From: a virus
Virus record (IMG/VR): IMGVR_UViG_3300047557_002986
Span: 1-60,782 of that record
DNA: 60,782 nt
Reading direction: 5' to 3' (one strand)
Shown: positions 3,430 through 50,034 of the stretch, one piece after another
Layout of the letters: each line of letters starts with the position of its first letter
How positions within the stretch are numbered: position 1 is the stretch's first letter
Program-made: the position numbers and the translations under genes
The notes under the pieces: generated by a model
What the model was told of the DNA's origin: nothing
Databases searched by the model: none
What the model saw: only the letters and a program-made list of their open reading frames with translations

Positions 3430-4025
3430 TGGCACTCACAGGATACGAAAAACCATTAGATCAATATACTCAAAAAGAATTAGCAGAAATTGCTAAGGAA
3501 TATAATCCTTATTATCAGACAGCAAGTGGAAAAGGAAAACTTGGAGGATATGAAAAATTAACTAAGCAACAACTTATCAATATCATTAAAGTTGATATTG
3601 AGTATATTGAAGCAAATCCAAAACTTCCTAGAAGAGTTAAAGGTCCTACTTATAGCAAAAGTAAATCAAAAAGTCTTACAGAATTAAAAGAATCTTTACT
3701 AGGAGTAGAAAACCCCGATGAACTCATGAATGAAATATTGTCCAGACTTAGTGGAAGTGAAGTACCTCTTCCTCCTGTTCCTGGAAGATATTATACTTAT
3801 GTTTATTATGCTAAAACTCCAAGAATTCGTTATGATAGATACCCATTAATTATTGTTGATAGTTTATTACCAAGAGGATTTAAAGGTTATAATTTTCATC
3901 TTGGAAAATACAGACAATATAATACTCAAGATGGAGATCGATTAGTTAGCGGATTGTATGAATTAAGCAGAGATGAATTTTCAATTCTACTAAGAATTCC
4001 ATACGGAAAATTAGTACAAAACTAA
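3429..4025 (+). CDS. Conserved cyanophage protein between gp4 and gp48, probable virion protein
   Basis: This 198-residue protein starts at an ATG overlapping the upstream stop (TAATG). The first 60 residues are helical and charged, with the SAP-like phrases YTQKELAEIAKEY and YEKLTKQQLINIIK. The C-terminal half holds an aromatic-rich block with RYYTYVYYAKTP, RYDRYPLIIVDSLLPRGFKGYNFHLGKY. Proteins with a PLIIV..GFKG.NFHL core recur in T4-like phages next to structural genes, but I cannot name a function. Its position between gp4 and gp48 suggests a structural or assembly role. Confidence 0.6.
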   Translation: MALTGYEKPLDQYTQKELAEIAKEYNPYYQTASGKGKLGGYEKLTKQQLINIIKVDIEYIEANPKLPRRVKGPTYSKSKSKSLTELKESLLGVENPDELMNEILSRLSGSEVPLPPVPGRYYTYVYYAKTPRIRYDRYPLIIVDSLLPRGFKGYNFHLGKYRQYNTQDGDRLVSGLYELSRDEFSILLRIPYGKLVQN

Positions 4026-20395: not shown

Positions 20396-21079
20396 TCAAC
20401 AAACAAGATTTGTCTTCATATGACCTACAACAACAGTCGGGTCTACATAAACTTTATGTCCATTTTGTGCAACTCGTTCGCACCAATCTAGGTCTTCGCC
20501 TAATGGAAGATAATAAGTGACTCCATCAATCTCTTGTTCGACTTTACCAAGTCCATACCAAGGTCTTTTAAGCGACTCAAAGACACCTTGCTTGATGCAC
20601 ATAAATCCAAGACCAACGCCATAAACTTCAAATGGTTCTCCAAGTTGTTGCAATAATGAAATCTCATCACGACTCATTGGTCTAAAATCATTCTTGTTTC
20701 GGTGTATCATTACATCAGCACCTTGTGCTTCAAAGTACACGCCTGATACAACATCATAATCGGTGTTACAAAGTTTCAAAAAATGCTCTGGATTCCAAAC
20801 AATATCACTATCAATACAAAAGATTTTATCATAAGTATATTGACCTTTTCCTGGTTGAGAATTAACAATTTCTAGATTTCTTGAACCAGTAATTGTTGCT
20901 TCTCTTGCATTTGTAACAATTGAAGCATACTCATTTTGATAATGCCAGGTAATTCCATTTGCATTTAAAACTTGAACAGTAACAAGCAGAGACTTTACAT
21001 ACTCTGCTGCCAATGTACGTCCAGGAGTCGTAATGACCACATTAAAGTGTGGTTTTTGTGTATTTTGATAGTTCATCAT
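20396..21079 (-). CDS. GT-A glycosyltransferase (DxD motif)
   Basis: The 227-residue protein has NVVITTPGRTLAAEYVKSL at the N-terminus and the metal-binding phrase YDKIFCIDSDIVWNPEHFLKL. Later come VSGVYFEAQG and GEDLDWCERVAQNGHKVYVD with an ED acid. It is a paralogue of the following upstream gene (21076-21792), and the two overlap by ATGA. Confidence 0.7.
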   Translation of the reverse strand: MMNYQNTQKPHFNVVITTPGRTLAAEYVKSLLVTVQVLNANGITWHYQNEYASIVTNAREATITGSRNLEIVNSQPGKGQYTYDKIFCIDSDIVWNPEHFLKLCNTDYDVVSGVYFEAQGADVMIHRNKNDFRPMSRDEISLLQQLGEPFEVYGVGLGFMCIKQGVFESLKRPWYGLGKVEQEIDGVTYYLPLGEDLDWCERVAQNGHKVYVDPTVVVGHMKTNLVC

Positions 21080-21792
21080 AGTACAATAGTTTTTTCGTGA
21101 CCAACTCTAACTTTTGGATTACACCAAATCTCAAATCCATATTCTCTAAAATCTTCACACATTGCAACGTCTTCGGAGCACATATCTTCAAGAAGAACAC
21201 CATCTTCTCTGGTCAGTTGTACTCTCTTTGGTGCAAACCAAGGGTAAGGAATCTTCTCAAAGACACCTTTCTTCATCAGAACCCAACCAAATCCACAGTA
21301 ATCAATTTTAAAAGGTCCTGGTCGTCTTTGCATATCTTCAACAGTTTCAAAATAATAAGAACCAGATTTAAGAAGAAGTTCTTTATCCATATTCACAACG
21401 ACAGTGGATTGATTGGATGTTGCAGTTCCATTTGATTGGACATACCAACCAGTTGCGATATCCTTATCCATTTCAAGAAGGTCTAGAACATTTTGTGTAT
21501 TGAAAACAATATCACTATCAATCCACATAATATAATCATAATTGACCTGACCTCTCCAAGGAGTCAGCATCGTACCTGCAAAATTATCTGCTTGCAAACA
21601 ATCAGTTCTGGCAAAGTTTACCATTGAACTGTATTTTTGTGAGATATAAAAGTTAATACCTAGTTGATTTAAATCAAAAACCAATCGTATAAACTGTGTG
21701 AGAAATGTTCCTGAATATGAACGACCCGGAAGGCAGAAAGCAATTGTTTTTCCTTTAAAATCATTCTTCGGTTGATTTGAATAATTCAACAT
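21076..21792 (-). CDS. GT-A glycosyltransferase (DSD motif)
   Basis: The 238-residue paralogue of the previous gene has IAFCLPGRSYSGTFLTQFIR, YDYIMWIDSDIVFNTQNVL, DIATGWYVQSNG, FGWVLMKKGVFEKIPYPWF and SEDVAMCEDFREYGFEIWCN. It is the first gene of the glycan block and starts 45 bases after the giant adhesin gene. A TATAAT-like hexamer lies in that gap, but no matching -35 is clear. Confidence 0.7.
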   Translation of the reverse strand: MLNYSNQPKNDFKGKTIAFCLPGRSYSGTFLTQFIRLVFDLNQLGINFYISQKYSSMVNFARTDCLQADNFAGTMLTPWRGQVNYDYIMWIDSDIVFNTQNVLDLLEMDKDIATGWYVQSNGTATSNQSTVVVNMDKELLLKSGSYYFETVEDMQRRPGPFKIDYCGFGWVLMKKGVFEKIPYPWFAPKRVQLTREDGVLLEDMCSEDVAMCEDFREYGFEIWCNPKVRVGHEKTIVL

Positions 21793-21836: not shown

Positions 21837-24800
21837 TTACCACCAGGTAATTTTCACATATCCATTTCCACCATCACCACCGTCTCCATAGGTATTGGTT
21901 TCGGCAGAGTATCCACCTCCACCACCTCCACCGCCATAAGTTCCGGAACCACCATTTCCTGCGTTTCCTGATGAAGTTCCAGAAGCATAAGTGATTGCAC
22001 CAAAAGCACCACCAATTACATATAAATTGTTTGCATATGCAGTTGTTGCTAATAGGTTTGCAATTGTATTGGATGACCTTGAAGACCACACAATCGCGTC
22101 AGTAGAAGTAATAATTCTTCCACCATTACCAGCAGCAACATAAAGATTATTTACATAACCAATTTCATTAATCGCAGTTGCACCAAATCCTGATGTCTGT
22201 AAAGTCCAGGTGATTCTATCTGTGGATGTTGTAATGATTCCAGCATCACCAGCAGCAACAAAGACTGAACCATAAGAAAGTGCTCTAATTAAAGTTGTTC
22301 CAAATCCTGATGTTCTCATTACCCAAGAAATTGTATCTGTGGAGGTAATTAAAGCAGGACCTACACCAGCATAGTTAGTTGTTGCTGCAACATAGAATGA
22401 ACTATTAGAAGTAAGAGCAACCACCGAAATCATATTATTTGTAGTGGTTCTTAAAGTCCAAGTGATTGTATCAGTTGAAGTGCTTAGATATGCACCTTCT
22501 CCAAGAGCAGCAAGAACACTTTGAGTTGCAGTTGTAAGTGTTCCACCAGCACCACCAGCAACATAAAGATTATTACCATAAGTTAGTGTATTAGTGTTGG
22601 AAGTACCGAAACCTGATGTTCTTGCAATCCAAACAATTGCATCCGTGGAAGTTCTTGTAAATCCACCAGTATTACCTCCACCAATATAAAGATTATTCCC
22701 ATATAAAAGATAAACTGCCGCCGTGCCCCAAGTAGCAGTTCTTACCGTCCAAGCAATTGCATCAGTTGAAGTTCTTGTGACACCACCTGCAACAGCAACA
22801 TAAACACCTCCATAAGTTAAACCAGAGATATTAGAAGTACCAAATCCTGATGTTCTTAATGTCCAAGTAATAGTATCCGTGGAAGTTCTTAATAAACCAG
22901 CATTCGCACCAGCAAGATAAACACCATTACCAAACGCAAAGGTTGTGATTGCTGTTGCACCAAATCCTGATGTTCTTAATAACCAAGTGATATTATTGGT
23001 TGAAGTCATTAAGAAACCAACTTCACTTCTATAATTAGTTCCGTGTGCAAAGGAATAAGAACCACCAGAACCAATTGCAGTAATCGTTTGAGTATTGAGT
23101 GGTGCAGTTCTTGTAATCCAAGTTAAACCATCAGTAGAAGCATTTAGAAGTGCTCCGTTACCAAGAGAAGATAAAGTGTCTTGTGTTGAAGTCGTAATGA
23201 GACCTGCAATACCACCATTTACATAAATGTTGTTTCCATAAGTAACTGCTTGAATTACAGAAGTACCAAATCCTGATGTTCTTAAAGTCCAAGTGATTGC
23301 ATCTGTGGAACTGATACTTGCACCAGCAGAACCAGAAGCAACATAAACATTATTGTTATATGCAAGACCATAAAAAGCTTGTAGAACACCAGCAGTTCTT
23401 AAAGTCCAAGCAACTGCATCAGTAGAGGTTAAAAGTGTTCCAGAAGCACCACCAACAACATAAACATTTCCATAAAGAGATGAAAAGAAATTATTTGGAG
23501 TACCAGAAGTTCTTGTTTCCCAAGAAATTGCATCAGTAGAAGTTTGTATGACGCCGTTAAGACGAGCATTAAGATAAGTCGTTGTTGGTGAAGATGAATA
23601 TAAAAGACTGACTATGGAGTTTGTAATATTCCCTGTTGTTCTTGCAGTCCAACGAATATTATCAGTTGAAGTAAATAATGCACCAGTCCCAGTAACAACA
23701 TAAGTTGATGTTGGCAAATCGCCATAAGTAATTGCTTGCATATTGCTACTAGCGGTAGCAGTTCTTGTAGTCCAAGCAATTCCATCAGTAGAAGTTCTTA
23801 AAATACCAGAAGCACCTGCTAATACATAAGGTTCATTACCTGTTGTTGCAGTGCCAGATTTTCCAGAAACATAAAGAAGTCCATTACCACCAGTAGTTTG
23901 ACCAATCTGTACTGTTGTTCCAGAAGTTCTTGCAGTCCAGTTAATTGAATCTGTGGATACTCTTAAAATACCAGATGCACCAGCAGCAAAGAAATTAGTA
24001 CCATCATACATTGAAGTATAAATTGCTGATGCAGTACCTGATGTTCTTTGAGTCCACATAACAGCAGAACCAGTACCACCAATTAAATACTCACCATTGA
24101 AGTAAGTTACACCAGCAATATTTGTTGCACCAAATCCTGATACACTTGAAACCCAGTTAATACCATCAGTAGAAGCAGTTAAAGTACCAGCATTACCAAC
24201 AGCAACATAAGTCGTTCCACTGGATGCTAATTGAGTAATTGCAGTCGTACCAAATCCTGATGTTCTCTGGAACCAAGTTGTGGTAATTGCTTCACCACCA
24301 AGAACATAAGTTGAACCTTGTTTAATCAGAGCATTCAATCCTCTCTGTGCTCCTGAGGTTCTTTGTACCCAGTTGATACTATCAGTAGAAACCATTAAGG
24401 ATGCTTCATTAATATAATTCACACCAGCAGCAAGATAGAAGTTATTATCTGCATAAACAGCATTAATCTGCTGTGAATTAGATGCTGTGGTTCTTATAGA
24501 CCAGGTGATACTATCAGTTGAGAAGGTATAATAAGCACCATTACCATAAGAAGAAAGTATTGCTGTTGATGAGGTGTTTATAAATGAACCACCACCAAGA
24601 ACATAAGTATTACCAACAGAGATAAGTGCGTTTATAGTATTTCCACCAGTACTAGAAGTTCTTTGTGTCCAAGTGATTGCATCTGTTGAGATTGTTAAGG
24701 TTCCAGGAAGACCACCAGCAACATAAAGATTGTTTGCATATGTTAATGCATTTATAGAAGATCCACCAAACCCAGAAGTTCTTTGAGTCCAAGTAATTGT

Positions 24801-27800
24801 ATCTGTTGAAGTTACTAATAATCCAGCAAGACCACCAGCAACATAGGCATTTGTTTGACCTGATGCATAAGCAAATGCAAGTACAGTACTTGAACCAAAT
24901 CCAGAAGTTCTTAATTCCCAAATAATTGCATCTGTCGAAGCATTAAGGAAAGTAGTACTACCTGCAAGATAAATTGGTGTTGGTGTTGTTGGTGCATAAA
25001 GAAGTGCATATATAGTATTCGTACCAAATCTTGCTGTTCTTAAAGTCCAAGTAATTCCATCGGTTGAGGTATTTAATCTTCCGCCATTACTACCAGCAAC
25101 ATAAGTTGGTGTTGGTAATGCTCCATAAGCAACTGAAAAGATTTCGGTTGTACCAAATCCTGCATTTTGTACTGTCCAAGAGATTGTATCTGTTGAAGTT
25201 GTTAGAGTTCCACCAATACCACCAGCAACATAAAGATTGTTACCAAAAGTAACTGCTCTTATAATACTTGCACCAAATCCTGATGTTCTTTGAGTCCAGT
25301 TAATAGCATCAGTAGAAACTGTTAATGCTCCTCCACCACCACCAGCAACATAAAGATTGTTTCCAAAAGTAACTGCTTGAATTGTAGATGTACCAAACCC
25401 AGAAGTTCTTAAAGTCCAACTTACAGTTGTTGCAAGACCACCACCGAAGAATGAGGTTCCCAAAGAACCCAGAGCATTCATACCTAATGTTGTACCAGCA
25501 GTTCTTAAATACCAACTGCTAATACCTGTGGATAATGCACCACCACCTGCACCACCACCACCACCAATATTTCCAGTATAAGAAGTAGGAATTCCATTTG
25601 CACCATTACCACCTGCATTTGTTCCACCAGTTGCAGTATAAGTGTTTCCGTAATAGTAAGAAACAACATTACCACCAGTATTGGTATTATAAGCACCACC
25701 AGCACCACCAGTCACTTGGAATGGAAGTGTTTGTGTGATGTTATTAGAACTTGCAAGTGCTGAAAGTCCATTACCACCTGCAACACCAGAAACTGAAATG
25801 AGTGGATTGAGTGTTGATGCTGCTGAGGTTCCTGCGGTTCCTCCTGTAACAGCAGTACCAGAAGCACCACCACCAGCAGCAGCACTTAAAGTATATGTTG
25901 CTCTTCCATCAAGAAGATTAGAACTCCAAGTGATTGTGGTGTTGGTTCCTGAAAGACCTGATGATTGTGCAAAACCAGCACCAGCAATATAAAGATTATT
26001 TTGATAGAGTAAATCATAAATGCTGCCGGATATCACGCCAGAAGTTCTTTGAGTCCAAATGATTGCATCCGTTGAAGTGTTTAGAATTCCACCATTACCA
26101 CCAGCAACATAAAGATTGTTTCCATAAGTAATTGTAACAATTTGAGTTGTGCCAAATCCTGATGTTCTTAATGTCCAGGTAATTGCATCTGTTGAAGTTG
26201 CTAGAGTTCCACCATTACCACCAGCAACATAAAGATTATTGGCATAAGTAATTGCAACAATTTGACTTGAACCAAATCCTGATGTTCTTAATGTCCAGGT
26301 AATTGCATCTGTTGAAGTGGTTAGAGTTCCATCTCTACCACCCGCTACATAAAGATTATTTGCATAAAGTAAAGAATAAATGATTGATGAACCAAATCCA
26401 GAAGTTCTTTGAGTCCAAGTAATTGCATCTGTTGAAGTTGTTAGTGCTCCATTAAAACCACTAGCAACATAAAGATTATTTCCATAAGCAATTGTAACAA
26501 TTTGACTTGAACCAAATCCTGATGTTCTTTGAGTCCAAGTGATTGCGTCGGTTGAGGTTGCTAATGGTGCAGAAGGAGTACCATAACCACCAGCAACATA
26601 AAGATTATTTGCGTAGATAATATCTCTAATTAAACTTGTGCCAAATCCAGAAGTTCTTAAAGTCCAAGTAATTCCATCTGTTGAAGTGTTTATAGTATCA
26701 CCAGCAGCAACATAAAGATTGTTTCCATAAGTAAGTGCAAGAACACCTGTTGTACCAAATCCAGCAGAAGTTCTTAAAGTCCAAGTGATTGCATCAGTAC
26801 TTGTCCATAAAGGTTTAGTGCTTCTTCCGCCACTTCCAGCAGAACCAGGAGTCACTGTAAGTGTTGTTGCATCACCAAGTTCGGGTCTTCGTATTAACCA
26901 AGCATTATAAGCACCAGAACCTCCACCACCACCAGAACCTAATGTTCCACTATCTCTTCCTGATGCTCCACCACCACCTGCACCAATTGCTTCAATATAA
27001 AAAGTTGATGCAGTTGGTGGAACATAGAAGGTTTGTGGAATTGGTAATGTAAACTCTTGTGTTCCTTTATAAGTGATTGCAGTACTATTGGTAGAAGTTA
27101 AAGAAGTCCAGTTTGATTTCTTACTTACATATTGTGAGGTTGCAATCTGTCCTAAACCACCACCAAGAACATAAGTACTTGCACCAAATCCTGATGTCCA
27201 AATCGTTTGTGAAAGATTTGAAGTACGAATCGACCAAACAACTGCATCCGTTGAAGTAACTAATAAACCACTATCACCCATAACAACATATAAGTCATTC
27301 AAATATCTAACAGACTGATAGTTAAGATTGGTTGGATTAATTCGATAAGTCCAAGCAATAGAATCTGTTGATGTTGTAATCGTTCCAACATCACCAACAG
27401 CAACATAAGTACCATTTAAGTATTCAACATCATTTACATTTACTCCACCAAATCCTGATGTTCTTAAAGTCCAAGTGATTGTATCTGTGGAAGTGCTGAT
27501 AATTCCATTATTTGCTCCAAGAATATAAAGATTGTTTCCATAAGAAACTGATTGTAGAGTTGTGAGACTATCAATACCAGAGGTTCTTAAAGTCCAAGTG
27601 ATACTATCTGTGGATGCTGATAAGAAGAATTGGTTAAGATAATCAGTACCATAAGTGAGGTAAGAGTTACCACCATAAACCAATCCTTTTCGATTGATAC
27701 TTTGAGTGTTGGTTCCTGTGGTTCTTAAAGTCCAAGCAATACCATTTGTTGAAGTGAGAAGTGTTGCACCATCTCCAAGATTTGTAAGAGATGCATAAGT

Positions 27801-30800
27801 TCCTGATGCGGTATATCCAGAGTTTGCTGCTGCAACATAAGTATTATTTCCATATGCAACATTATTAATTGTTGCTGGAATACCTGATGTTCTTGCAATC
27901 CAAGTAATTCCATCTGTGGAAATAAGATTTGTACCAGAAGTATCAGAAGCACTATAAAGATTATTGCCAAAATCAAGTGCTGTAATGGATGTTGAGAGAC
28001 TTGAAGTTCTTAATGTCCAGGTGATGGTATCTGTGGAAGTGTTAAGAATACCAGTATCACCAGCAACAACATAAAGATTATTACCGAAAGTGACTGTACG
28101 AATGGTTGTAAGTCCAAATCCTGATGTTCTTGCAGTCCAAGAAATCGTATCCGTGGAAACTGCTAAGGTACTATTGGAATTATAATCACTAAATGCAGCA
28201 AGATAAAGTGAAGGACTTGAAGTAATTGAATCTACTTGTTGAACATTTGGTATTGAAGTTCTTATATTCCAGGTGATGGTATCAGTAGAGGTTGATAGAA
28301 GTGCTCCATTACCTAGATTGGTGAGTTGTGAGTAGGTTGCTGTGGTTAGAGTTCCATTATCACCACCAGCAACATAGAGATTGTTTGCATAAAGAAGTGA
28401 ATATATAACACTTGTACCAAATCCAGAAGTTCTTGAACTCCAAGTAATGGAGTCTGTTGAAGTTGCTAAGACACCAGCAATACCACCAGCAACATAAAGA
28501 TTGTTTGCATAAGTAAGTGCAATAGGACCACTAGTACCAAGACCTGATGTTCTTAATTCCCAAGTAATAGAGTCTGTTGAAGATGCAATTCCACCTCCAA
28601 CAGCAAGGGCACCAGCAGCATAAAGATATCTACCATTTGCATAAACAAAAGAACGAACAATTCCAGAAGATATTCCAGATGTTCTTGCTTCCCAAGTAAT
28701 TGCGTCTGTTGATGCAAATACTCTAGTAGTAGAACCTACAAGATAAAGATTGTTTAGATAATTTAATCCATATAATCCTACTGTTGTACCAGAAGTTCTT
28801 AATTCCCAAGTAATTGCATCTGTTGAAGTTGTTAGTGCTCCATTAAAACCACTAGCAACATAAAGATTATTTCCATAAGCAATTGTAACAATTTGACTTG
28901 AACCAAATCCTGATGTTCTTTGTGTCCAACTAATAGAGTCTGTTGAAGTGTTTAAAGTTCCACTATCACCAACAGCAATATAAAGATTGTTTCCATAAGT
29001 AAGTCCTCTTATTTGACTTACTCCAAATCCAGAAGTTCTTTGAGTCCAAGTGATTGCGTCTGTTGAAGTGTTTAGAACTCCACCATTACCACCAGCAACA
29101 TAAAGATTATTCCCATAAGTTAGTCCAAGTATAAGACTTGCACCAAAACCAGAAGTTCTTAAAGTCCAACTCACAACAGGACTTAAACCACCAATCAAAT
29201 ACCTAGAACTATCAGCATAAAGTGAAGTAATGCTATTTCCATAAACACCAGCAGTTCTTAAAGTCCAGGTGATGTTATCTGTTGAAGCAATTATCACACC
29301 AGGATTTGAAATATAATCACTACCAGCAGCAAGATAAGAAGAACCAGCAGTGAGTTTATTGATTCTAACTAATCCTTGTCCTGTGGTTCTTATCGACCAA
29401 GAAATACCATTCGTAGAAACATTTAAACGAGCACCATTTCCAAGTGAGGATAGAATACTTGAAGTTGTTGATTGAAGTTGTCCTATTCTTCCAGCAGTAA
29501 TAAAAGTATTATTACCAAATGCAGAACTTCTTTGAGCATTAGAAATAAGACCGAAATTGCTTGTTCTTAAAGTCCAAACAATTGCATCAGTTGAAGTTCT
29601 TGTTGAACCACCATTTGATGCTAAAACATAAACATTATTTCCATAAGAAATATCAACGTAATTTGCAGCAATACCAGCAGTTCTTAAAGTCCAAGTGATT
29701 GTATCTGTTGAGGTTTGTACTGTATTAGAAGCACCAGTTCTAGAAGCAGCAAGATAAAGATTAGAACCATTCGTACCTAATACAACTCTAAAAGGCATAC
29801 TAGTTGCAGCAGTTCTTGCAACCCAGTTAATAGTATCAGTCGAAACTGCAAGTGTTGTATTGGAATTATAATCACTCAAAGCAGCAAGATAAAGTCCTGG
29901 TGTGGATACAATTGAATCTACTTGTTGAACATTTGGTATTGAAGTTCTTATATTCCAGGTGATGGTATCAGTAGAAGTTGATAGAAGTGCTCCATTACCT
30001 AGATTGGTTAAAGATTCATAGGTTGCTGTGGTTAGAGTTCCACCAAAACCACCAGCAACATAAAGATTATTACCAAAGGTAAATGAACCATTAGATGTAC
30101 TGCTTGTACCAAATCCTGATGTTCTTTGAGTCCAAGTGATTGCATCTGTTGAAGTGTTTAAAGTTCCACCAGAACCAGAAATAACATAAAGGTTATTTTC
30201 ATAGGAAATATTATTAATTTGAAGAGCATTAAATCCAGCAGTTCTTAAAGTCCAAGTAATTGCATCTGTTGAAGTGTTTAGAATACCACCAATAACACTA
30301 CCACTCATAGAACCACCAGCATAATAAGTGCCGTTAATATAATTAAATGAATAAATTGTTCCTGTACCAAATCCTGATGTTCTTAAAGTCCAAGAAATTG
30401 CATCAGTTGAAGTTGCTAAATGCCCATTATTTGCAGCACCAGAACCAATAAGATAAAGGTTGTTTCCATAACCAAGTCCACGAAATCCATTAGTTCCATA
30501 TACTAATGGTACTTGTGTCCAACTAATTGCATCTGTTGAAGTGATAATAATGTTTGAAGACAAATCCTGAGAAACTGCAACAAAAGTACTTGTTGGAGAA
30601 GTACCATAAGTTAGATATCTAATATTTGTTGTACCATATCCTGATGTTCTTTGAGTCCAAGCAATTCCATCAGTTGAAGTTGATAAGATTCCACCATTAC
30701 CACAAGCAACATAAGTATTGTTTGCATAAAGAAGTGCTCCTATTTGACTTGTACCAAATCCAGAAGTTCTTAATTCCCAGGTGACTGCATCAGTTGAAGT

Positions 30801-32606
30801 AGTTAAAGTTCCACCAGTACCACCAGCATAATAAGTATTATTTGCATAGATAAGTCCAAGTATAACACTTGTACCAAACCCAGAAGTTCTTTGAGTCCAA
30901 CTCACGACTGGTATAAAACCACCAACCAAATATCCATTATCATCAGCATAAAGTGAAGTAATTGTATTTCCATAAACACCAGCAGTTCTTAAAGTCCAGG
31001 TGATGTTATTGGTAGAAACAGAAATCGCACCATCTACACCAGCATAAGTACTGTTTGATGCAAGATAATAAGAAGAATTAGAAGCAAGATAATCAATCTG
31101 TGAAATACTAGATGTTGTGGTTCTTGTAGTCCAGGATACTGCGTCTGTTGATACTGTAAGAAGTGCTCCTGTGTCTATGAGTGCTGATGCTGTGGTTAGA
31201 GTTCCACCAGAACCACCAGCAACATAAATATTGTTTCCAAATGTAAATGCTCTTATTTGACTCGTACCAAATCCAGAAGTTCTTTGAGTCCAAGTAACTG
31301 CATCTGTTGAAATTGCCAAGTTACCAAAGTTTGAACCAGCAATATAAAGATTATTTTCATAAAAAAGTGTTTGTACATTATTTGTACCAAACCCAGAAGT
31401 TCTTTGTGTCCAAGTTACTGAATCTGTTGAGGTAGTTAAAGTTCCAGCAACACCACCAGCAACATAAAGATTGTTCCCATAGGTAAGTCCAATAATAATA
31501 GAAGTACCAAACCCAGAAGTTCTTTGAGTCCAAGTGATTGCGTCTGTTGAAGTAGTTAGAGTTCCAGTATCACCAACAGCAAGATAAGTTACTGTTGGTG
31601 TTGTTGGTATATAAAGAAGTTGTAATATTCTAGTTGTACCAAATCCAGAAGTTCTTGAAGTCCAGGTGATTGCGTCTGTTGAAGTGGTTAGAGTTCCACC
31701 GACACCACCAGCAACATAAGCATTTGTTTGACTTAATGCATATATAAGTGTTCTTATTTCACTTGTACCAAACCCAGAAGTTCTTTGTGTCCAAGTGATT
31801 GCGTCTGTTGAAGTGTTTAATGCACCACCAGAACCACCAGCAACATAAAGATTGTTTGCATAAGTAAGTGCAAATATACCACTTGCACCAAACCCAGAAG
31901 TTCTTTGTGTCCAAGCAATTGCATCTGTTGAAGTGTTTAAGATTCCAGTATCACCAGAAACAATATAAAGATTATTTGCATAAGTAAGTCCAAGTATATT
32001 AGTTGAACCAAATCCAGAAGTTCTTTGAGTCCAAGTTGCAAGAGGATCATAAAGACCACCAGCAAGAAAATATCCCTGACCAAAAGTTACATCATTAATA
32101 TCAGCATCACCAAATCCAGAAGTTCTTGAAGTCCAGGTGACTGTTTCAATAAATCCACCAGCAACAAAGAATCCATTTCCGAATGTTACATCATTAACAT
32201 CTGTGGAACCAAAACCAGAAGTTCTTAAAGTCCAAGAGTTTGTTGGCGGAGTCGCACCACCTAAAAGATATTGATTATTTGCATATAAAACACTATATAA
32301 ATCACCACGAGCACCAGAAGTTCTTAAAGACCAGGTGACTGCATCTGTTGAAGAGATTAAAGATGCAGAACCACCCGCAGCAAGAAAGACATTATTATCA
32401 TAAGTAATTGCATTTACAGAACTTCCATCAATTCCAGAAGTTCTTGCAAACCAATAGACACCAGACTCTGGATAAACACTTAAAAAAGTTCCAGGTATTC
32501 CTGTTGTTTTAAGGCTTCTATCATCAACATAAGACTTATTTGCAGCATCTGTGGAATTAGATACTACACTTACACCTGTGACTTTATTACTGTCTAGTGT
32601 CGCCAT
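21837..32606 (-). CDS. Giant putative adhesin of 3589 residues with 77 propeller blades and glycine-rich domains
   Basis: A single 10.8-kb frame. Residues 1-40 (LDSNKVTGVSVVSNSTDAAN, KSYVDD) match the N-termini of the two downstream paralogues and fibre-type attachment domains. The bulk is a repeat of about 40 residues, YGNNLYVAGGNGGTLTTSTD then AITWTLRTSGFG, resembling Asp-box/BNR blades. I count 77 tryptophan-anchored blades. A glycine-rich domain (FYIEAIGAGGGGASG onward) lies near the middle, and another, with DGGDGGNGYVKITWW, closes the protein. As bracketed modules the blades make 11 seven-bladed propellers, eight of them nested inside others. The role is inferred: host-surface binding, possibly glycans. 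A late promoter lies just upstream at 32634-32641. A glycan block follows. It is unusually long for a phage fibre gene. Confidence 0.8.
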   Translation of the reverse strand: MATLDSNKVTGVSVVSNSTDAANKSYVDDRSLKTTGIPGTFLSVYPESGVYWFARTSGIDGSSVNAITYDNNVFLAAGGSASLISSTDAVTWSLRTSGARGDLYSVLYANNQYLLGGATPPTNSWTLRTSGFGSTDVNDVTFGNGFFVAGGFIETVTWTSRTSGFGDADINDVTFGQGYFLAGGLYDPLATWTQRTSGFGSTNILGLTYANNLYIVSGDTGILNTSTDAIAWTQRTSGFGASGIFALTYANNLYVAGGSGGALNTSTDAITWTQRTSGFGTSEIRTLIYALSQTNAYVAGGVGGTLTTSTDAITWTSRTSGFGTTRILQLLYIPTTPTVTYLAVGDTGTLTTSTDAITWTQRTSGFGTSIIIGLTYGNNLYVAGGVAGTLTTSTDSVTWTQRTSGFGTNNVQTLFYENNLYIAGSNFGNLAISTDAVTWTQRTSGFGTSQIRAFTFGNNIYVAGGSGGTLTTASALIDTGALLTVSTDAVSWTTRTTTSSISQIDYLASNSSYYLASNSTYAGVDGAISVSTNNITWTLRTAGVYGNTITSLYADDNGYLVGGFIPVVSWTQRTSGFGTSVILGLIYANNTYYAGGTGGTLTTSTDAVTWELRTSGFGTSQIGALLYANNTYVACGNGGILSTSTDGIAWTQRTSGYGTTNIRYLTYGTSPTSTFVAVSQDLSSNIIITSTDAISWTQVPLVYGTNGFRGLGYGNNLYLIGSGAANNGHLATSTDAISWTLRTSGFGTGTIYSFNYINGTYYAGGSMSGSVIGGILNTSTDAITWTLRTAGFNALQINNISYENNLYVISGSGGTLNTSTDAITWTQRTSGFGTSSTSNGSFTFGNNLYVAGGFGGTLTTATYESLTNLGNGALLSTSTDTITWNIRTSIPNVQQVDSIVSTPGLYLAALSDYNSNTTLAVSTDTINWVARTAATSMPFRVVLGTNGSNLYLAASRTGASNTVQTSTDTITWTLRTAGIAANYVDISYGNNVYVLASNGGSTRTSTDAIVWTLRTSNFGLISNAQRSSAFGNNTFITAGRIGQLQSTTSSILSSLGNGARLNVSTNGISWSIRTTGQGLVRINKLTAGSSYLAAGSDYISNPGVIIASTDNITWTLRTAGVYGNSITSLYADSSRYLIGGLSPVVSWTLRTSGFGASLILGLTYGNNLYVAGGNGGVLNTSTDAITWTQRTSGFGVSQIRGLTYGNNLYIAVGDSGTLNTSTDSISWTQRTSGFGSSQIVTIAYGNNLYVASGFNGALTTSTDAITWELRTSGTTVGLYGLNYLNNLYLVGSTTRVFASTDAITWEARTSGISSGIVRSFVYANGRYLYAAGALAVGGGIASSTDSITWELRTSGLGTSGPIALTYANNLYVAGGIAGVLATSTDSITWSSRTSGFGTSVIYSLLYANNLYVAGGDNGTLTTATYSQLTNLGNGALLSTSTDTITWNIRTSIPNVQQVDSITSSPSLYLAAFSDYNSNSTLAVSTDTISWTARTSGFGLTTIRTVTFGNNLYVVAGDTGILNTSTDTITWTLRTSSLSTSITALDFGNNLYSASDTSGTNLISTDGITWIARTSGIPATINNVAYGNNTYVAAANSGYTASGTYASLTNLGDGATLLTSTNGIAWTLRTTGTNTQSINRKGLVYGGNSYLTYGTDYLNQFFLSASTDSITWTLRTSGIDSLTTLQSVSYGNNLYILGANNGIISTSTDTITWTLRTSGFGGVNVNDVEYLNGTYVAVGDVGTITTSTDSIAWTYRINPTNLNYQSVRYLNDLYVVMGDSGLLVTSTDAVVWSIRTSNLSQTIWTSGFGASTYVLGGGLGQIATSQYVSKKSNWTSLTSTNSTAITYKGTQEFTLPIPQTFYVPPTASTFYIEAIGAGGGGASGRDSGTLGSGGGGGSGAYNAWLIRRPELGDATTLTVTPGSAGSGGRSTKPLWTSTDAITWTLRTSAGFGTTGVLALTYGNNLYVAAGDTINTSTDGITWTLRTSGFGTSLIRDIIYANNLYVAGGYGTPSAPLATSTDAITWTQRTSGFGSSQIVTIAYGNNLYVASGFNGALTTSTDAITWTQRTSGFGSSIIYSLLYANNLYVAGGRDGTLTTSTDAITWTLRTSGFGSSQIVAITYANNLYVAGGNGGTLATSTDAITWTLRTSGFGTTQIVTITYGNNLYVAGGNGGILNTSTDAIIWTQRTSGVISGSIYDLLYQNNLYIAGAGFAQSSGLSGTNTTITWSSNLLDGRATYTLSAAAGGGASGTAVTGGTAGTSAASTLNPLISVSGVAGGNGLSALASSNNITQTLPFQVTGGAGGAYNTNTGGNVVSYYYGNTYTATGGTNAGGNGANGIPTSYTGNIGGGGGAGGGALSTGISSWYLRTAGTTLGMNALGSLGTSFFGGGLATTVSWTLRTSGFGTSTIQAVTFGNNLYVAGGGGGALTVSTDAINWTQRTSGFGASIIRAVTFGNNLYVAGGIGGTLTTSTDTISWTVQNAGFGTTEIFSVAYGALPTPTYVAGSNGGRLNTSTDGITWTLRTARFGTNTIYALLYAPTTPTPIYLAGSTTFLNASTDAIIWELRTSGFGSSTVLAFAYASGQTNAYVAGGLAGLLVTSTDTITWTQRTSGFGGSSINALTYANNLYVAGGLPGTLTISTDAITWTQRTSSTGGNTINALISVGNTYVLGGGSFINTSSTAILSSYGNGAYYTFSTDSITWSIRTTASNSQQINAVYADNNFYLAAGVNYINEASLMVSTDSINWVQRTSGAQRGLNALIKQGSTYVLGGEAITTTWFQRTSGFGTTAITQLASSGTTYVAVGNAGTLTASTDGINWVSSVSGFGATNIAGVTYFNGEYLIGGTGSAVMWTQRTSGTASAIYTSMYDGTNFFAAGASGILRVSTDSINWTARTSGTTVQIGQTTGGNGLLYVSGKSGTATTGNEPYVLAGASGILRTSTDGIAWTTRTATASSNMQAITYGDLPTSTYVVTGTGALFTSTDNIRWTARTTGNITNSIVSLLYSSSPTTTYLNARLNGVIQTSTDAISWETRTSGTPNNFFSSLYGNVYVVGGASGTLLTSTDAVAWTLRTAGVLQAFYGLAYNNNVYVASGSAGASISSTDAITWTLRTSGFGTSVIQAVTYGNNIYVNGGIAGLITTSTQDTLSSLGNGALLNASTDGLTWITRTAPLNTQTITAIGSGGSYSFAHGTNYRSEVGFLMTSTNNITWLLRTSGFGATAITTFAFGNGVYLAGANAGLLRTSTDTITWTLRTSGFGTSNISGLTYGGVYVAVAGGVTRTSTDAIAWTVRTATWGTAAVYLLYGNNLYIGGGNTGGFTRTSTDAIVWIARTSGFGTSNTNTLTYGNNLYVAGGAGGTLTTATQSVLAALGEGAYLSTSTDTITWTLRTTTNNMISVVALTSNSSFYVAATTNYAGVGPALITSTDTISWVMRTSGFGTTLIRALSYGSVFVAAGDAGIITTSTDRITWTLQTSGFGATAINEIGYVNNLYVAAGNGGRIITSTDAIVWSSRSSNTIANLLATTAYANNLYVIGGAFGAITYASGTSSGNAGNGGSGTYGGGGGGGGYSAETNTYGDGGDGGNGYVKITWW
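21970..32468 (-). repeat. Array of 77 propeller blades arranged as nested seven-blade modules
   Basis: Approximate modules on the DNA (minus strand, right to left): P1 27125-32468 contains A 27785-32250. A contains B 29450-32155 and E 28315-29185. B contains C 31175-32050 and D 30005-30920. A stand-alone module lies at 25955-26815. F 21970-25525 contains G 24545-25435 and H 22500-24290, and H contains I 23160-24070. A module without inserts spans about 0.87 kb. Each opens at a tryptophan lacking the usual STDAI lead (for example PVVSW, TTVSW, AVMW). Each closes at a blade ending in TLTTA-like residues, often followed by LGNGALL. Confidence 0.7.
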
Positions 32607-32633: not shown

Positions 32634-32641
32634 TATTTATT
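32634..32641 (-). promoter_or_regulatory. Late promoter AATAAATA of the giant adhesin gene
   Basis: The minus strand reads AATAAATA 28 bases before the ATG, overlapping the stop codon of the upstream gene. Confidence 0.6.
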
Positions 32642-34439
32642 AGAACCAGGTAATCTTTACATAACCATTACCACCATTACCACCATTACCAAAAGTGGAA
32701 CCAATAGAAGCACCACCACCTCCACCACCTCCACGAACTCCATTACCACCAGTTGCTGCGATTGAAACACTTGCTCCACCACCACCTCCACCATAACCAT
32801 AAGGAAGTCCAGAGATTGCTACTGCTGTGGTTCCATTTGTTCCTGATGCAGTTCCACCAGATGCTGATGTTGAGATTCCATAAACATTAATTGCACCACC
32901 AGCACCACCAGCATTTGTAGCAGAACCAGCACCACTTCCACCACCTGTTGGTTGGAATTGATTGGTTTGTGATGTTGCTGTGACCCCAGCATTTATTGGT
33001 GTTTGACTTGCTCCAGAAAGTCCAGCAGTGGTATAAAAAGAACTTGATTGACTTGTAAGTTGTGCTGCTCCTGCTACACCACCAGCACCTCCCCCAGATG
33101 CTGTGATTGTGTAAGTTCCCCCAGGTCCAGTCCAAGATACTGTGGTTCCTGCTCCTGCTGAACCTGCTGCTGCGTCTGTAGTTCCTCCTGCTCCACCAAC
33201 ACCAGGATTGACTGTGATGTTTGAAGATATAATTGATTTTGGAACATACCAGGAAGTGTAAGAACCTGATGCTCCTCCTTGTCCTGATGCTTGTGTGTAT
33301 GAGGTTGCTACTATTCCAGAACCACCACCAGCAACATAAGTATTGTTTATAAAAATAAGAGATCTAAGTGAATTAGTGGTATTTGAAGTTCTTAAAGTCC
33401 AAGTGATTGCATCTGTTGAGGTATTTAAGATTCCACTATCACCCCCAGCAATATAAGTATTATTTCCAAAAGTAAGAGCATTAATAGCACTAGTAGTTCC
33501 TGAAGTTCTTGCGGTCCAAATTATTGTATCTGTTGAGGTATTTAATACCCCACTATCACCAGATGCAATATAAGTATTATTTGTAAAATTAAATGAACGA
33601 ATAATAGTAGAACCAAAACCAGAAGTTCTTAAAGTCCAAGTGATTGCATCTGTTGAGGTATTTAATATTCCAGAACCACCACCAGCAAGATAAAGGTTGT
33701 TTCCAAAAGTAAGAGCACTAATAGCAGTACCACTAAAACCAGTAGTTCTTAAAGTCCAAGTGATTGTATCTGTTGAAGTAATTATTCTTCCTAAAGTACC
33801 ACCAAAAGCATAAGTATTTACTGGTACTGTCCCAAAAGTAAAAGCATTGATTGTATTAGCACCAAAACCAGAAGTTCTTAAAGTCCAAGTGATTGCATCT
33901 GTTGATGTATTTACTACTCCATTAGTACCACCAGCAACATAAGTGTTATTTACAAAACCAAGAGCAAGAATACTATTAGTACCAAAACCAGAAGTTCTTT
34001 GAGTCCAAATGATTGCATCCGTTGAAGTGTTTAGAATTCCACCATTACCACCAGCAACATAAAGATTGTTTCCATAAGTAATTGTAACAATTTGAGTTGT
34101 ACCAAAACCAGAAGTTCTTAAAGTCCAAGTCACTGTTGCCTGTGCTGTTGTCTGTCCTGCACTTCCTCCACCACCAGCACCTACTGCTTCAATGTATAAA
34201 AGATTTGCTTGATTTGGTACTGTAAAAGACTGTGGTGTGGTACTTGTAAACTCCTGATAGTTGGAAACATAATCCCAAGATGCTGTGGTTCCATCAGTTG
34301 TGGTTAAGACCTTTCCAGCATTACCAGTCTGTGATGGTAGTGTTCCAATACCACTCTCTGCATAAGACTTATTGACTACATCAGTATTGGAAACAACTGT
34401 TGAAATCCCTGTGATTGAATTACCTGTTGCTTGTGACAT
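32640..34439 (-). CDS. Glycine-rich adhesin with one inserted seven-bladed propeller
   Basis: The 599-residue protein starts ATGNSITGISTVVSNTDVVN and KSYAESG, followed by a domain ending LYIEAVGAGGGGSAG. A block of exactly seven tryptophan-anchored blades (about 33300-34140) is then inserted. After it the glycine-rich domain resumes (SYTSWYVPKSIISSNITVNP, GVGGAGG, and further GGGGG runs) and ends GGNGYVKITWF. The inserted propeller thus sits in a loop of a host domain reminiscent of glycine-rich tip adhesins. AAGGAGGAA gives a strong ribosome site. Receptor binding is inferred. Confidence 0.75.
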   Translation of the reverse strand: MSQATGNSITGISTVVSNTDVVNKSYAESGIGTLPSQTGNAGKVLTTTDGTTASWDYVSNYQEFTSTTPQSFTVPNQANLLYIEAVGAGGGGSAGQTTAQATVTWTLRTSGFGTTQIVTITYGNNLYVAGGNGGILNTSTDAIIWTQRTSGFGTNSILALGFVNNTYVAGGTNGVVNTSTDAITWTLRTSGFGANTINAFTFGTVPVNTYAFGGTLGRIITSTDTITWTLRTTGFSGTAISALTFGNNLYLAGGGSGILNTSTDAITWTLRTSGFGSTIIRSFNFTNNTYIASGDSGVLNTSTDTIIWTARTSGTTSAINALTFGNNTYIAGGDSGILNTSTDAITWTLRTSNTTNSLRSLIFINNTYVAGGGSGIVATSYTQASGQGGASGSYTSWYVPKSIISSNITVNPGVGGAGGTTDAAAGSAGAGTTVSWTGPGGTYTITASGGGAGGVAGAAQLTSQSSSFYTTAGLSGASQTPINAGVTATSQTNQFQPTGGGSGAGSATNAGGAGGAINVYGISTSASGGTASGTNGTTAVAISGLPYGYGGGGGGASVSIAATGGNGVRGGGGGGGASIGSTFGNGGNGGNGYVKITWF

Positions 34440-34451
34440 TTGAGTTCCTCC

Positions 34452-37175
34452 TTACCACCAACTGATACGAACATAACCATCACCACCAGTACCACCAGTA
34501 CCTGTTGCAAGTGTTGTGGTATCAAATGCACCGCCACCGCCTCCACCACCTTTGACTCCTGATGCTCCTGAACCTATGAGTGCTGAGTCTGGTGAGGTGT
34601 GAATAACTGCACCAGAACCACAAACAACAAAAGTATTGTTCGCAAAAGTAGATGAAGTTAAAGTGAATGGTAAACCAGAAGTTCTTAGTGTCCAAGTGAT
34701 TGCATCTGTTGAAGTTGTTAATCTTCCAGTATTACCAATACAAATATAATTTGTATTACCAAAATTGAGATTATTAATTTGCGTTGAACCAAATCCAGAA
34801 GTTCTTTGAGTCCAGTTAATTGCATCAGTAGAAACTGTTAAAGTTCCAGCAGTGCCACCAGCAACATAAAGATTATTTGCAAAAAGAAATGCTCTGATAT
34901 CATTAATACCAAACCCAGAAGTTCTTTGTGTCCAAGTAATTGCATCTGTTGAAGTGGATAGAGTTCCACCGTATCCACCAACAATATAAATATTATTTCC
35001 AAATTCAAGTGTCCAAATAATACTTGTACCAAAACCAGAAGTTCTTAAAGTCCAAGTAATTCCATCTGTTGAAGTCGATAATAATGAAGATTCAGGATCT
35101 AAATCTCCTCCTGAAAGAAGATAAAGATTATTTCCGTATGTAAATGACCTTATACTGGTAACTCCTCCACCAGAAGTTCTTGCAGTCCAAGTAATTCCAT
35201 CTGTTGAAGTTCCTAATGCACCATTATTACCTCCAACAAGATATAAATTATTTGAATAAAATAAACTTCTTAGATTAATACCAAATCCTGATGTTCTCTG
35301 TGTCCAAGTGATTGCGTCTGTTGAAGTGTTTAGAACTCCTACATCACCAGCAGCAACATAGGTGGAATTATGAGACCCATACGTAAGTAAATAAGGAGTA
35401 GTTGTTCCAAATCCAGAAGTTCTTAAAGTCCAAACAACAGCACCAGAACTTTGAACACCACCACCAGCACCACCAGCACCATAAGAAAGTCCAGCAATAC
35501 TTTGAGAATTTAACGCATTTACTGCTGCAAAGTTATTGGTATAAGTCTGCCCATAATAGTTGATTGTACCACCAGAACCACCAACATTTCCTGTTCCTTC
35601 ACTCACTCTTCCACCACCACCACCTGTTGTTTGACTTGATATTGTTGAGTTTGTTGCAGCACCAACAATTGGTTCAAAAACACTTCCAGAACCACCATTA
35701 GTTCCAGAAGATGCTGAAAGATAGTTTGTATTTGCTGCTGGTAATGTTCCACCAGAACCACCAGCAGGAAAACCAAAGGTACTTGTGCTACTTCCAGCAC
35801 CTCCACCATTTGCAGTTAAGGTATAAGTCCCTGATGGTCCAGTCCAAGATATTGTGGTTGCTGCTCCTGCTGTGTTTGCAGTACCACCAGCACCAACACT
35901 TAGATTGATTGTAGAACCAGTAATGTATGCTCTTGAAATCTTCCAGGATGCTGATGCTCCACCACCACCTCCTGCACCTGAGAATCCTGATACTGTTGTT
36001 GGTGATGTTGTGAGAACACCATTATCTCCTCCAGCAAGATAAAGGTTACTTGCATAGGAGATGCCAATTATTTGACTTGAACCAAATCCAGAAGTTCTTA
36101 ATTCCCAAGTGATTGCATCTGTTGAAGTATTTAAAACACCACCAGTACCACCAGCAAGATAAAGATTGTTTCCAAAAGCAAGTGCTTGTTGATTTATAGG
36201 TCTTGTACCAAATCCAGAAGTTCTTAAAGTCCAAGTGATTGCATCCGTTGAGGTATTTAAAATTCCAACACTTCCCCCAGCAACATAAGTTGTGATTGGT
36301 GATGTTCCATAAGTAAGAGAAAATATACCACTTGTACCAAATCCAGAAGTTCTTAAAGTCCAGGTGATTGCATCTGTTGAAGTATTTAAAACACCACCAG
36401 TACCACCAGCAACATAAGTATTGTTTGCATATATTATTCCATAAACTACACTTGAACCAAATCCAGGTGTTCTTTGTGTCCAAGTGATTGTATCTGTTGA
36501 TGTAAATAATGTTCCACCATTACCACCAGAAACATATGTTGCAATTGGTGTTGTACCATAAGCAATTGTTAATATTGAAGTAGTACCAAATCCAGAAGTT
36601 CTTAAAGTCCAATTAATTGCATCTGTTGATATGTTTAATATTCCACCAGTGCCACCAGCAACATAAGTATTGTTTGCATAAGTAAGTATTGTTATAATAC
36701 TTGAACCAAATCCAGAAGTTCTTTGAGTCCAAGTGATTGCATCTGTTGATGTTGTTAAAACTCCATTAAGACCACCAGCAACATAAAGATTGTTTGCATA
36801 AGTAAAAGTCCATATTTGAGTTCCACCAAACCCAGAAGTTCTTTGTCTCCAAGCACTTGCAGGTTGATAAGAAGTTCCATCGGTTGTTGCAGAACCTCCA
36901 CCACCTCCTGCACCTGTTGCTTCAATTAGAAACTCACTTGCAGTACTTGGAACATTAAAAGTATAATTCCCTGCTGCTGTGTATTCATTATATCCATCAA
37001 TTGCTGCCCAAGAAGTTGTAGAACCATCAGTTACTAGAAACTTATTTTGTGAAGTATCAGGATTTGGTGCTTGTGATTGAAAGTAATTATCAACATACTG
37101 TTTACTTGCAGCATCAGTTGAGTTTGATGTTGTTGTAATTCCAGTAATTTGATTAGAACCAATCTGTACAGGCAT
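34452..37175 (-). CDS. Glycine-rich adhesin with two inserted seven-bladed propellers
   Basis: The 907-residue protein has the shared N-terminus (IGSNQITGITTTSNSTDAAS, KQYVDN) and FLIEATGAGGGGG. A first run of seven blades (about 36005-36860) is followed by a glycine-rich core with SWTGPSGTYTLTANGGGAG. A second run of seven blades (about 34595-35440) precedes the ending KGGGGGGGAFDTTTL...GGDGYVRISWW. Blade wording (STDAITWTLRTSGFG, NNLYVAGG) is the same as in the 3589-residue neighbour. A GGAG ribosome site lies 8 bases before the ATG. No promoter is seen in the one-base gap to the upstream gene, so co-transcription is likely. Confidence 0.75.
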   Translation of the reverse strand: MPVQIGSNQITGITTTSNSTDAASKQYVDNYFQSQAPNPDTSQNKFLVTDGSTTSWAAIDGYNEYTAAGNYTFNVPSTASEFLIEATGAGGGGGSATTDGTSYQPASAWRQRTSGFGGTQIWTFTYANNLYVAGGLNGVLTTSTDAITWTQRTSGFGSSIITILTYANNTYVAGGTGGILNISTDAINWTLRTSGFGTTSILTIAYGTTPIATYVSGGNGGTLFTSTDTITWTQRTPGFGSSVVYGIIYANNTYVAGGTGGVLNTSTDAITWTLRTSGFGTSGIFSLTYGTSPITTYVAGGSVGILNTSTDAITWTLRTSGFGTRPINQQALAFGNNLYLAGGTGGVLNTSTDAITWELRTSGFGSSQIIGISYASNLYLAGGDNGVLTTSPTTVSGFSGAGGGGGASASWKISRAYITGSTINLSVGAGGTANTAGAATTISWTGPSGTYTLTANGGGAGSSTSTFGFPAGGSGGTLPAANTNYLSASSGTNGGSGSVFEPIVGAATNSTISSQTTGGGGGRVSEGTGNVGGSGGTINYYGQTYTNNFAAVNALNSQSIAGLSYGAGGAGGGVQSSGAVVWTLRTSGFGTTTPYLLTYGSHNSTYVAAGDVGVLNTSTDAITWTQRTSGFGINLRSLFYSNNLYLVGGNNGALGTSTDGITWTARTSGGGVTSIRSFTYGNNLYLLSGGDLDPESSLLSTSTDGITWTLRTSGFGTSIIWTLEFGNNIYIVGGYGGTLSTSTDAITWTQRTSGFGINDIRAFLFANNLYVAGGTAGTLTVSTDAINWTQRTSGFGSTQINNLNFGNTNYICIGNTGRLTTSTDAITWTLRTSGLPFTLTSSTFANNTFVVCGSGAVIHTSPDSALIGSGASGVKGGGGGGGAFDTTTLATGTGGTGGDGYVRISWW

Positions 37176-43546: not shown

Positions 43547-44608
43547 TCATAGAGCATTACCGCGAGGCAACACCTCTTCTGGAAACACAAAGTTCTCATG
43601 AGGTTGATCTACTGGTGCCATCCAAGCACGAAGACCTTCGTTAAGCAGTATATTTTTTGTGTAGAAAGTCTCAAATTCTGGATCTTCTGCTGCACGAATC
43701 TCCTGACTTACAAAATCATAAGCACGTAGATTGAGAGCAAGACCAATAATCCCAATAGAAGATGTCCAAAGACCCATGACAGGAACAAAAAGCATAAAGA
43801 AATGCAACCAACGCTTGTTACTGAAAGCAATGCCAAAAATTTGTGACCAAAAACGATTAGCTGTGACCATAGAATAGGTTTCTTCTTCTTGAGTCGGTTC
43901 AAATGCTTTGAAAGTATTTGCTTTATCACCATCTTCAAATAGAGTATTTTCAACTGTTGCACCATGAATAGCACAGAGAAGTGCTCCACCTAGTATACCA
44001 GCAACTCCCATCATATGAAACGGATTTAACAGATAATTATGAAATCCTTGAATAAACAGAAGAAATCGGAAGATAGCAGCAACTCCAAAGGAGGGAGCAA
44101 AGAACCAACTGGATTGACCCAGTGGATACATCAGAAACACACTCACAAACACCGCAATCGGACCAGAGAATGCAATTGCGTTGTAAGGGCGGATACCAAC
44201 CAGTCGAGCAATCTCAAACTGGCGAAGCATAAATCCAATTAAAGCGAAAGATCCGTGTAGTGCCACAAAAGTCCAGAGTCCCCCAAGTTGGATCCAACGG
44301 ACGAAATCTCCCTGAGCTTCTGGACCCCAAAGAAGTAGAAGGGAATGTCCGAGAGCATCAGCAGGAGTAGAAACAGCAGCGGTAAGGAAATTGCAACCCT
44401 CAAGGTAAGAACTCGCAATACCATGAGTATACCAACTGGTTGCGAACGTAGTTCCCGTAAGCCAACCACCCAGAGCGAGATAAGCAGTCGGGAATAATAG
44501 TAAACCAGACCAACCGACAAAAACAAACCTATCACGCTTAAGCCAATCGTCAAGTACATCAAACCATCCTCGTTGTTGAATTGGTTGTGAAAGTGTTGAA
44601 GATACCAT
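43547..44608 (-). CDS. psbD: Photosystem II reaction-centre protein D2
   Basis: 353 residues from the ATG at 44608 (GGAG five bases before it). A TTG-started frame three codons longer lies over that ribosome site. D2 signatures are [20 protein letters not shown], the chlorophyll/quinone-region [60 protein letters not shown] and the C-terminus [16 protein letters not shown]. It keeps photosystem II repaired during infection, with psbA. It is uninterrupted, unlike psbA. Both a sigma-70-like and a late promoter lie upstream, and a terminator follows. Confidence 0.96.
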
Positions 44609-44629
44609 AGACTCCAATGTAATTTCTCA

Positions 44630-50031: not shown

Positions 50032-50034
50032 TTT

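Follow-up and report, generated by a model that had tools for sequence, protein, structure and literature searches.

A giant cyanophage reading frame whose repeats parse as seven-bladed propellers nested within one another

The window analysed here, i.e. the whole stretch of 60,782 nucleotides of the IMG/VR virus record IMGVR_UViG_3300047557_002986, carries psbA, baseplate genes, tail-fibre genes, and the gene of an S74 chaperone protein. Because the contig bears psbA together with baseplate and tail-fibre genes, the virus is considered to be a cyanophage. The psbA gene (photosystem II D1, cyanophage type) is located at 43547-44617 (-), and several glycosyltransferase genes in a row lie nearby (49237-53439). 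An open reading frame of 3589 amino acids at 21837..32606 (-) is real and uninterrupted; a letter-for-letter identical protein is encoded on a longer contig, IMGVR_UViG_3300044825_002608 (99.6 kb), and over 20.9 kb the DNA is 100% identical. The whole giant ORF matches Pfam PF19755 (DUF6242) above the cut-off (E 8.6e-17). The giant protein and two paralogues, o2 and o3, share a glycine-rich domain, the loops of which carry propellers. The adjoining 798-aa protein (37177-39573, (-)) ends in a Peptidase_S74 chaperone domain and also holds a propeller stretch of the SGL/lactonase type, a different propeller family. The modules of the giant ORF and the two paralogues are as follows, where propellers are named by letters and related IMG/VR sequences by L numbers.

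32454..32606 (-), N-terminal segment (MATLDSNKV...NKSYVDDR), with the same start in L010, L012, L024, L027, L030, and L042
27123..32453 (-), outer propeller P1 of seven blades, with A inserted in blade 2 (unit parse)
27789..32234 (-), propeller A, host of two inserts, B (blade 1) and E (blade 3) (unit parse)
29463..32135 (-), propeller B, host of two inserts, C (blade 1) and D (blade 3) (unit parse)
31194..32033 (-), leaf propeller C at depth 4 (parse, and one-block alignment with leaves of other phages)
30036..30899 (-), leaf propeller D (unit parse)
28344..29168 (-), leaf propeller E (unit parse)
26799..27092 (-), first part of the glycine-rich domain (EFTLPIPQTFYVPP...GSGGRSTK), from the sequence and from Gly_rich_2 on the equivalent part of L042
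25959..26798 (-), stand-alone propeller S within the glycine-rich domain (unit parse; cleanly missing in L024 relative to L027)
25515..25958 (-), middle part of the glycine-rich domain (sequence)
21993..25514 (-), propeller F, host of two inserts, G (blade 1) and H (blade 3) (parse; the tree is identical in L024 and L027)
24576..25418 (-), leaf propeller G (unit parse)
22530..24275 (-), propeller H, host of I in blade 2 (parse; AF2 pLDDT 82.7)
23193..24056 (-), leaf propeller I, set into H blade 2 between its b and c strands (AF2 secondary structure)
21840..21992 (-), C-terminal part of the glycine-rich domain (GGGGGGGGYSAE...GYVKITWW), from the sequence
32640..34439 (-), paralogue o2 of 599 aa, a glycine-rich domain with one un-nested seven-bladed propeller, a natural control
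34452..37175 (-), paralogue o3 of 907 aa, a glycine-rich domain with two un-nested seven-bladed propellers, a natural control

The N-terminal segment may attach the protein to the virion, a role that is inferred only.

When the sequence is cut at the tryptophan of each blade, a repeat of some 40 residues is obtained, W-TLRTSGFGTSAINALTYGNNTYVAGGAGGTLNTSTDAIT, in which the tryptophan, the arginine, and the S-T-D turn are nearly invariant. Each blade consists of strand d (WTLRT), strand a (INALTYG), strand b (TYVAGG), and strand c (GTLNT), in agreement with the secondary structure predicted by AF2. The Asp-box-like turn S-T-D-x-I-x-W lies between strands c and d, and its S-T-D is nearly invariant in normal units. 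Splitting the giant ORF in this manner yields 77 units; a tryptophan at aa 1902 was rejected as a blade anchor, as it belongs to the glycine-rich domain. The units are of four kinds, namely normal, elongated, closing, and opening. An opening unit has no Asp-box before the next tryptophan and lacks any c strand, and a closing unit has about 24 residues between strand b and the Asp-box in place of the usual 7 or so; the length of this tail is trimodal, with values of 7 (normal), 11-13 (elongated), and 24 (closing).

When these labels were read by a stack machine, the window was parsed without error as 7(b2:7(b1:7(b1:7,b3:7),b3:7)) 7 7(b1:7,b3:7(b2:7)), i.e. 11 modules of exactly seven blades each, nested four levels deep. 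At the sequence level, strand d is the first of a module and strand c the last. The S module (aa 1936-2215) is shifted by one strand relative to the other modules, with its entry at strand c (KPLWTSTDAITW) and its exit after strand b. By enumeration, a random order of the marks would give sevens throughout with a probability of 2.2e-7 for the 42-unit block and 8.5e-5 for the 28-unit block, the latter having been simulated as well (34 of 400000 trials gave all sevens); the joint chance for both nests is 1.9e-11. The labels were set after inspection of the sequence, and therefore these probabilities cover the order of the marks and not their definition, for which the relatives are a better test.

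The eight insert-bearing blades of the window end in LLGG, VAGG, LAGG, LVGG, LIGG, FGGG, VLGG, and LIGG, and the hosts are of two types: A, B, and F take inserts in blades 1 and 3, and P1 and H take theirs in blade 2. After the insert, the host mostly resumes with LGNGALL. In all eight cases the next blade after closure of the insert has an elongated b-c hairpin (e.g. ASNSTYAGVDGAISVST and AALSDYNSNTTLAVST). In terms of sequence, the insertion unit consists of the opening blade, the insert, the resumption, and the long-hairpin blade. A preliminary description had proposed 77 blades in 11 seven-bladed modules, a bracket tree drawn by eye with seven blades at every level, and an insertion point after the LxGG strand. 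The count was upheld by the rule-based parser, and the tree returned by the stack machine is identical; the rule of seven, by sequence, and the insertion point held both in the window and in the relatives. One correction is needed, namely that each insert is accompanied by a long-hairpin blade downstream, which the earlier grammar did not include.

Scans of IMG/VR retrieved many proteins related to the giant ORF. Relatives at 37-62% identity keep the nest rule with different trees, and the bracket pattern is not peculiar to a single sequence. Across 58 ORFs the length correlates with the number of blades (r=0.993), and it increases in steps from about 595 aa (one propeller) to 900 (two), 1185 (three), 1520 (four), and 1780 (five), up to 4380. 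The trees of the shorter and medium-sized relatives were read as follows.

L024: 7(b1:7,b3:7(b2:7)), with an identical nest contained in L027
L047: 7(b1:7,b3:7) 7 7
L045: 7(b2:7,b4:7) 7
L040, the 908-aa protein of L012, and the 914-aa protein of L030: 7(b2:7) in each
L030, 2719-aa protein: 7(b3:7) 7 7(b1:7,b3:7(b2:7(b3:7))), under an earlier form of the parsing rules
L012, 3328-aa protein: 7(b3:7(b1:7)) 7 7(b1:7,b3:7(b2:7(b1:7,b3:7))), read by hand
L010, F part: 7(b1:7,b3:7(b2:7(b2:7,b4:7),b3:7)), read by hand

The parsing rules were tuned on some of the relatives and a few corrections were made by hand in L012, L030, and L042, so that testing on the relatives was not completely blind. Of 59 ORFs, 35 fail to parse as all sevens, for the most part because weak anchors escape the parser, and some of the distant ORFs belong to other families. 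In L010, and also in L011, a reading-frame break cuts the giant ORF near the end of P1, upstream of the F part (between 12763 and 12849 of L010). Plain tandem pairs of seven-bladed propellers, together with single ones, are spread over several paralogous ORFs in L104 and L114.

The longest proteins, L042 and L043 (4380 aa, from two metagenomes), are linear nests of 13 levels and 91 blades. On its way outward the chain mostly lays down two blades per ring; the innermost ring lies at aa 1324-1578, and on the return mostly five blades are added per ring. For this reading of L042, two weak tryptophan anchors were added and one unit was relabelled by eye. It was also observed that levels 3 and 4 of L042 resemble levels 5 and 6 in both arms (71% and 69% for 3 against 5; 51% and 67% for 4 against 6), the similar arms being found at aa 705-786 and 541-621 on the outgoing side and at aa 3217-3365 and 3690-3838 on the returning side, with thousands of residues between the arms. 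It appears that levels of L042 duplicate as coordinated pairs.

Leaf propellers, whether nested or standing alone (n=107), align in one block on insert I. The isolated phage DSL-LC01 encodes a lone leaf-like seven-bladed protein of 290 aa with the same first and last strands. A tblastn search of 50,697 phage records returned only three distant relatives, and no nest was present in the two that were examined; a single-sequence query of genome contigs returned only distant cellular propellers, the nesting status of which was not looked at.

If the nested pairing is correct, a common history would be expected for both arms of a ring, outgoing and returning. For 48 hosts, the correlation between the similarity matrices of the two arms is r=0.542 for nested pairing, 0.365 for first-in-first-out pairing, and 0.267 +/- 0.054 for shuffling within proteins, and none of 5000 shuffles reaches the nested value. 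L042 alone gives r=0.657 (p<2e-4). In the window, the DNA of A3 and B3 is 88.9% identical in the outgoing arms and 86.6% identical in the returning arms, compared to 68.6% for the respective inserts E and D and 58.9% for the later blades.

Comparisons of close relatives show that propellers are gained or lost as a whole. L024 and L027 share 92% DNA identity, and L024 is without the entire P1 nest (aa 52-655 of L027) and without the entire S propeller (aa 737-1041). L012 and L030 are 87-90% identical around I, and L012 has a complete additional propeller in blade 1 of I, plus the long-hairpin blade. The depth-4 leaf of L012 shows 77% identity to the P1 leaf of L030, which is at depth 2, and 71% to the G leaf of L027. 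As judged from this similarity, entire propellers are relocated from one site or depth to another. E has exact repeats of 113-117 nt in common with S, as does S with the neighbouring o2, and these suggest that recombination or gene conversion took place recently.

The H propeller with its insert I was modelled by AF2 from an alignment of 47 rows, comprising full nests and leaves with flanking host blades aligned end to end. A 60-row alignment with bare leaves and another with bare return arms were dropped, as their rows were in the wrong register. The H(I) model has a pLDDT of 82.7 and a pTM of 0.71, and four of the five models are near 80. DSSP assigns 56 strands (14 x 4) in the order of four strands of H1; d, a, and b of H2; 7 x 4 strands of I; a short helix; strand c of H2; four strands each of H3 to H7; and a short helix. 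Strand b of H2 is at model positions 66-72, the strands of the insert are at 79-368, and strand c of H2 follows at 379-384. H(I) is therefore predicted to consist of two propellers, with the insert in the b-c loop of host blade 2, and the model fits the proposed topology strand by strand, the closure of the host ring being inferred. For the F nest, with its four propellers (1187 aa), the model was built from six sequences and was too poor to be used (pLDDT 37.6), so that the predictions support one level of nesting, in the H(I) pair, and do not support the larger nest. A Foldseek search of the PDB with the H(I) model, which cannot separate nested from tandem order, returned mostly double propellers at the top (2YMU, Elp2, Gemin5, AIP1) with poor superposition of the whole model. 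One ring of H(I) superimposes on the model of a 299-aa viral DUF6242 protein at 2.9 A (TM 0.78). Overall, the nested bracket architecture of the giant ORF is very probably correct, strongly supported at the sequence level and only partially at the structural level.

Gly_rich_2 (PF21722) matches the equivalent part of L042 above the cut-off (E 5e-12), the only tested protein to pass, and falls below the cut-off on o2 of the window (2.9e-4). No match to the PF21722 profile was found on the giant ORF, and no sequence match in the PDB was found for the glycine-rich domain. Glycine-rich tail-fibre tips are known from Pam3 gp24 and phage S16 gp38, and the loop tips of Pam3 are proposed to bind the host (PMC9608196). 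The giant protein would resemble them in having glycine-rich loops at the end of a cyanophage fibre, and it differs in that loops of its glycine-rich domain carry whole propellers. It is very likely that the giant gene encodes a tail-fibre-type adhesin of the cyanophage, in which whole propellers have been recursively inserted into one tolerant b-c loop of others, receptor binding being inferred from context only. S and F sit in loops of the glycine-rich domain and, by analogy to Pam3, the propellers probably replace or extend the tips of these loops.

Of the loops of a four-stranded blade, b-c and d-a are on one face and a-b and c-d on the other. A module starts with strand d and ends with strand c, and therefore it should join its host via the c-d face and have its own b-c insertion loop on the opposite face. 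From this topology it is inferred that nesting would stack the rings end to end, outward from the host, and that two inserts in one ring would create a branch. Each joint would be crossed twice by the chain and not once, which should make it stiffer. The product may thus be envisaged as a stiff, doubly connected, and branched fibre with exposed distal rings, the shape of which is untested. In such a fibre, binding heads could be exchanged by recombination with the carrier ring kept intact, and the most plausible task would be multivalent recognition of the host surface, for which there are no binding data. A bolder reading, which is still considered likely, is that phages use a recursive grammar, by which a propeller repeatedly takes its own kind in one loop, single chains grow into fibres of closed rings, either unbranched or branched, and the heads that bind the host evolve through the relocation of whole rings.

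Several alternative explanations can be considered. In a plain tandem array, the rings would follow one another along the chain and the apparent openings and closings would be degenerate blades. Un-nested seven-bladed propellers do occur in the neighbouring ORFs and in many relatives. However, the pieces outside the brackets total seven only when counted across the insert (chance of about 2e-11), the arms co-vary in nested order, entire inserts are present or absent between near relatives, and AF2 places strand c of H2 after the insert; the tandem array is all but ruled out. Another possibility is an artefact of assembling a highly repetitive gene, as exact repeats of up to 117 nt are abundant in it and are difficult for short reads. 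Against this, identical or collinear long ORFs were obtained from several metagenomes (four contigs, L012-L015; L010/L011; L042/L043; the window and L009), and a collapsed or chimeric repeat would not preserve seven blades at each level, which leaves almost no room for such an artefact.

The brackets may also be real with rings that are closed in trans, between the subunits of a homo-oligomer by domain swapping, in which case the nest would be a property of the fibre and not of the single chain. Sequence and arm co-variation are blind to the difference between cis and trans, and the myocyanophage fibre protein Pam3 gp24 is a trimer (PMC9608196). However, AF2 folds H and I with high confidence from a single chain, each leaf is formed by an uninterrupted stretch of chain, and a propeller of similar type stands alone as a 290-aa protein. 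Closure in trans is thus highly improbable, yet it cannot be excluded. Finally, the nest could serve as a rigid scaffold or a length spacer, with the host bound only by the tip or by another protein. The unbranched chain of 13 rings in L042 resembles a stalk, and adjoining genes encode other fibre proteins; on the other hand, branching, as seen in the proteins of the window, L010, L012, and L030, is not needed in a spacer, and the swapping of whole propellers between sites is better matched by variable heads. This role is regarded as unlikely, and an adhesin of nested propellers remains the preferred reading.

Recursive domain insertions have been catalogued from ECOD, where the deepest case reaches six levels in the Si3 region of cyanobacterial RNA polymerase beta' and inserts are typically smaller than their hosts (Schaeffer et al. 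2026, PMC13114784). Si3 and the giant ORF are alike in that one fold family is repeatedly inserted into itself, with branching hosts and the order A1-B1-C-B2-A2. They differ in that Si3 has six levels of small hybrid-motif domains, whereas the family of the giant ORF has seven-bladed rings, hosts of the same size as the inserts, and a depth of four levels in the window and of thirteen in L042. Double WD40 propellers (AIP1, Gemin5, Elp2, the repetitive propeller 2YMU, and beta'-COP) likewise have two propellers per chain and are among the best matches in the PDB. In some double WD40 propellers one ring is closed by strands of both termini. They have one level at most, without recursion, and WD40 blades in contrast to the Asp-box/DUF6242-like blades found here. 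DUF6242/Asp-box (BNR-like) and Kelch-like phage propellers have the blade sequence family in common with the giant ORF; the viral DUF6242 model used for comparison is a single propeller, unlike the nested giant ORF.

The literature searched contained no description of nested DUF6242-type propellers, and none of propellers nested in propellers beyond one level with a constant number of blades; many papers behind subscriptions and every bioRxiv preprint fell outside its scope. The preliminary description had regarded the architecture as unknown from the literature, which held in part, since self-insertion of a fold is known to six levels (PMC13114784), and the papers searched contained no propeller nests deeper than one level in which the blade number is constant. 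The recursive principle is the same as in known cases, but, as inferred from sequence, the rings are of constant size, the trees branch, there are thirteen levels, and whole rings are evidently exchanged.

If the nested reading is true, no other domain architecture in the sources searched would be nested as deeply (thirteen levels versus six), and the case would depart from two rules of thumb, one being that an insert is smaller than its host and the other that nesting seldom goes deep. It would also raise the question of how a ring folds when some 3,400 residues separate its two halves, which is the case for level 2 of L042, and whether the innermost ring folds first, as well as the question of how a gene duplicates a level with far-apart halves. 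Such proteins would offer a principle, taken from nature, for the design of single-chain fibres that are branched and doubly connected and have exchangeable heads.

A gene of the phrog_1574 type (function unknown, weakly glycosyltransferase-like) was observed directly after a propeller gene of the giant-ORF family in four different phages, at the following positions.

21076-21792 (-) and 20396-21079 (-) of the window, phrog_1574-type followers
17509-18222 of L042, phrog_1574-type follower
12684-13403 of L047, phrog_1574-type follower
2298-3011 of L040, phrog_1574-type follower

The phrog_1574 product could possibly be a dedicated partner of the propeller proteins, e.g. a modifying enzyme or an assembly factor.
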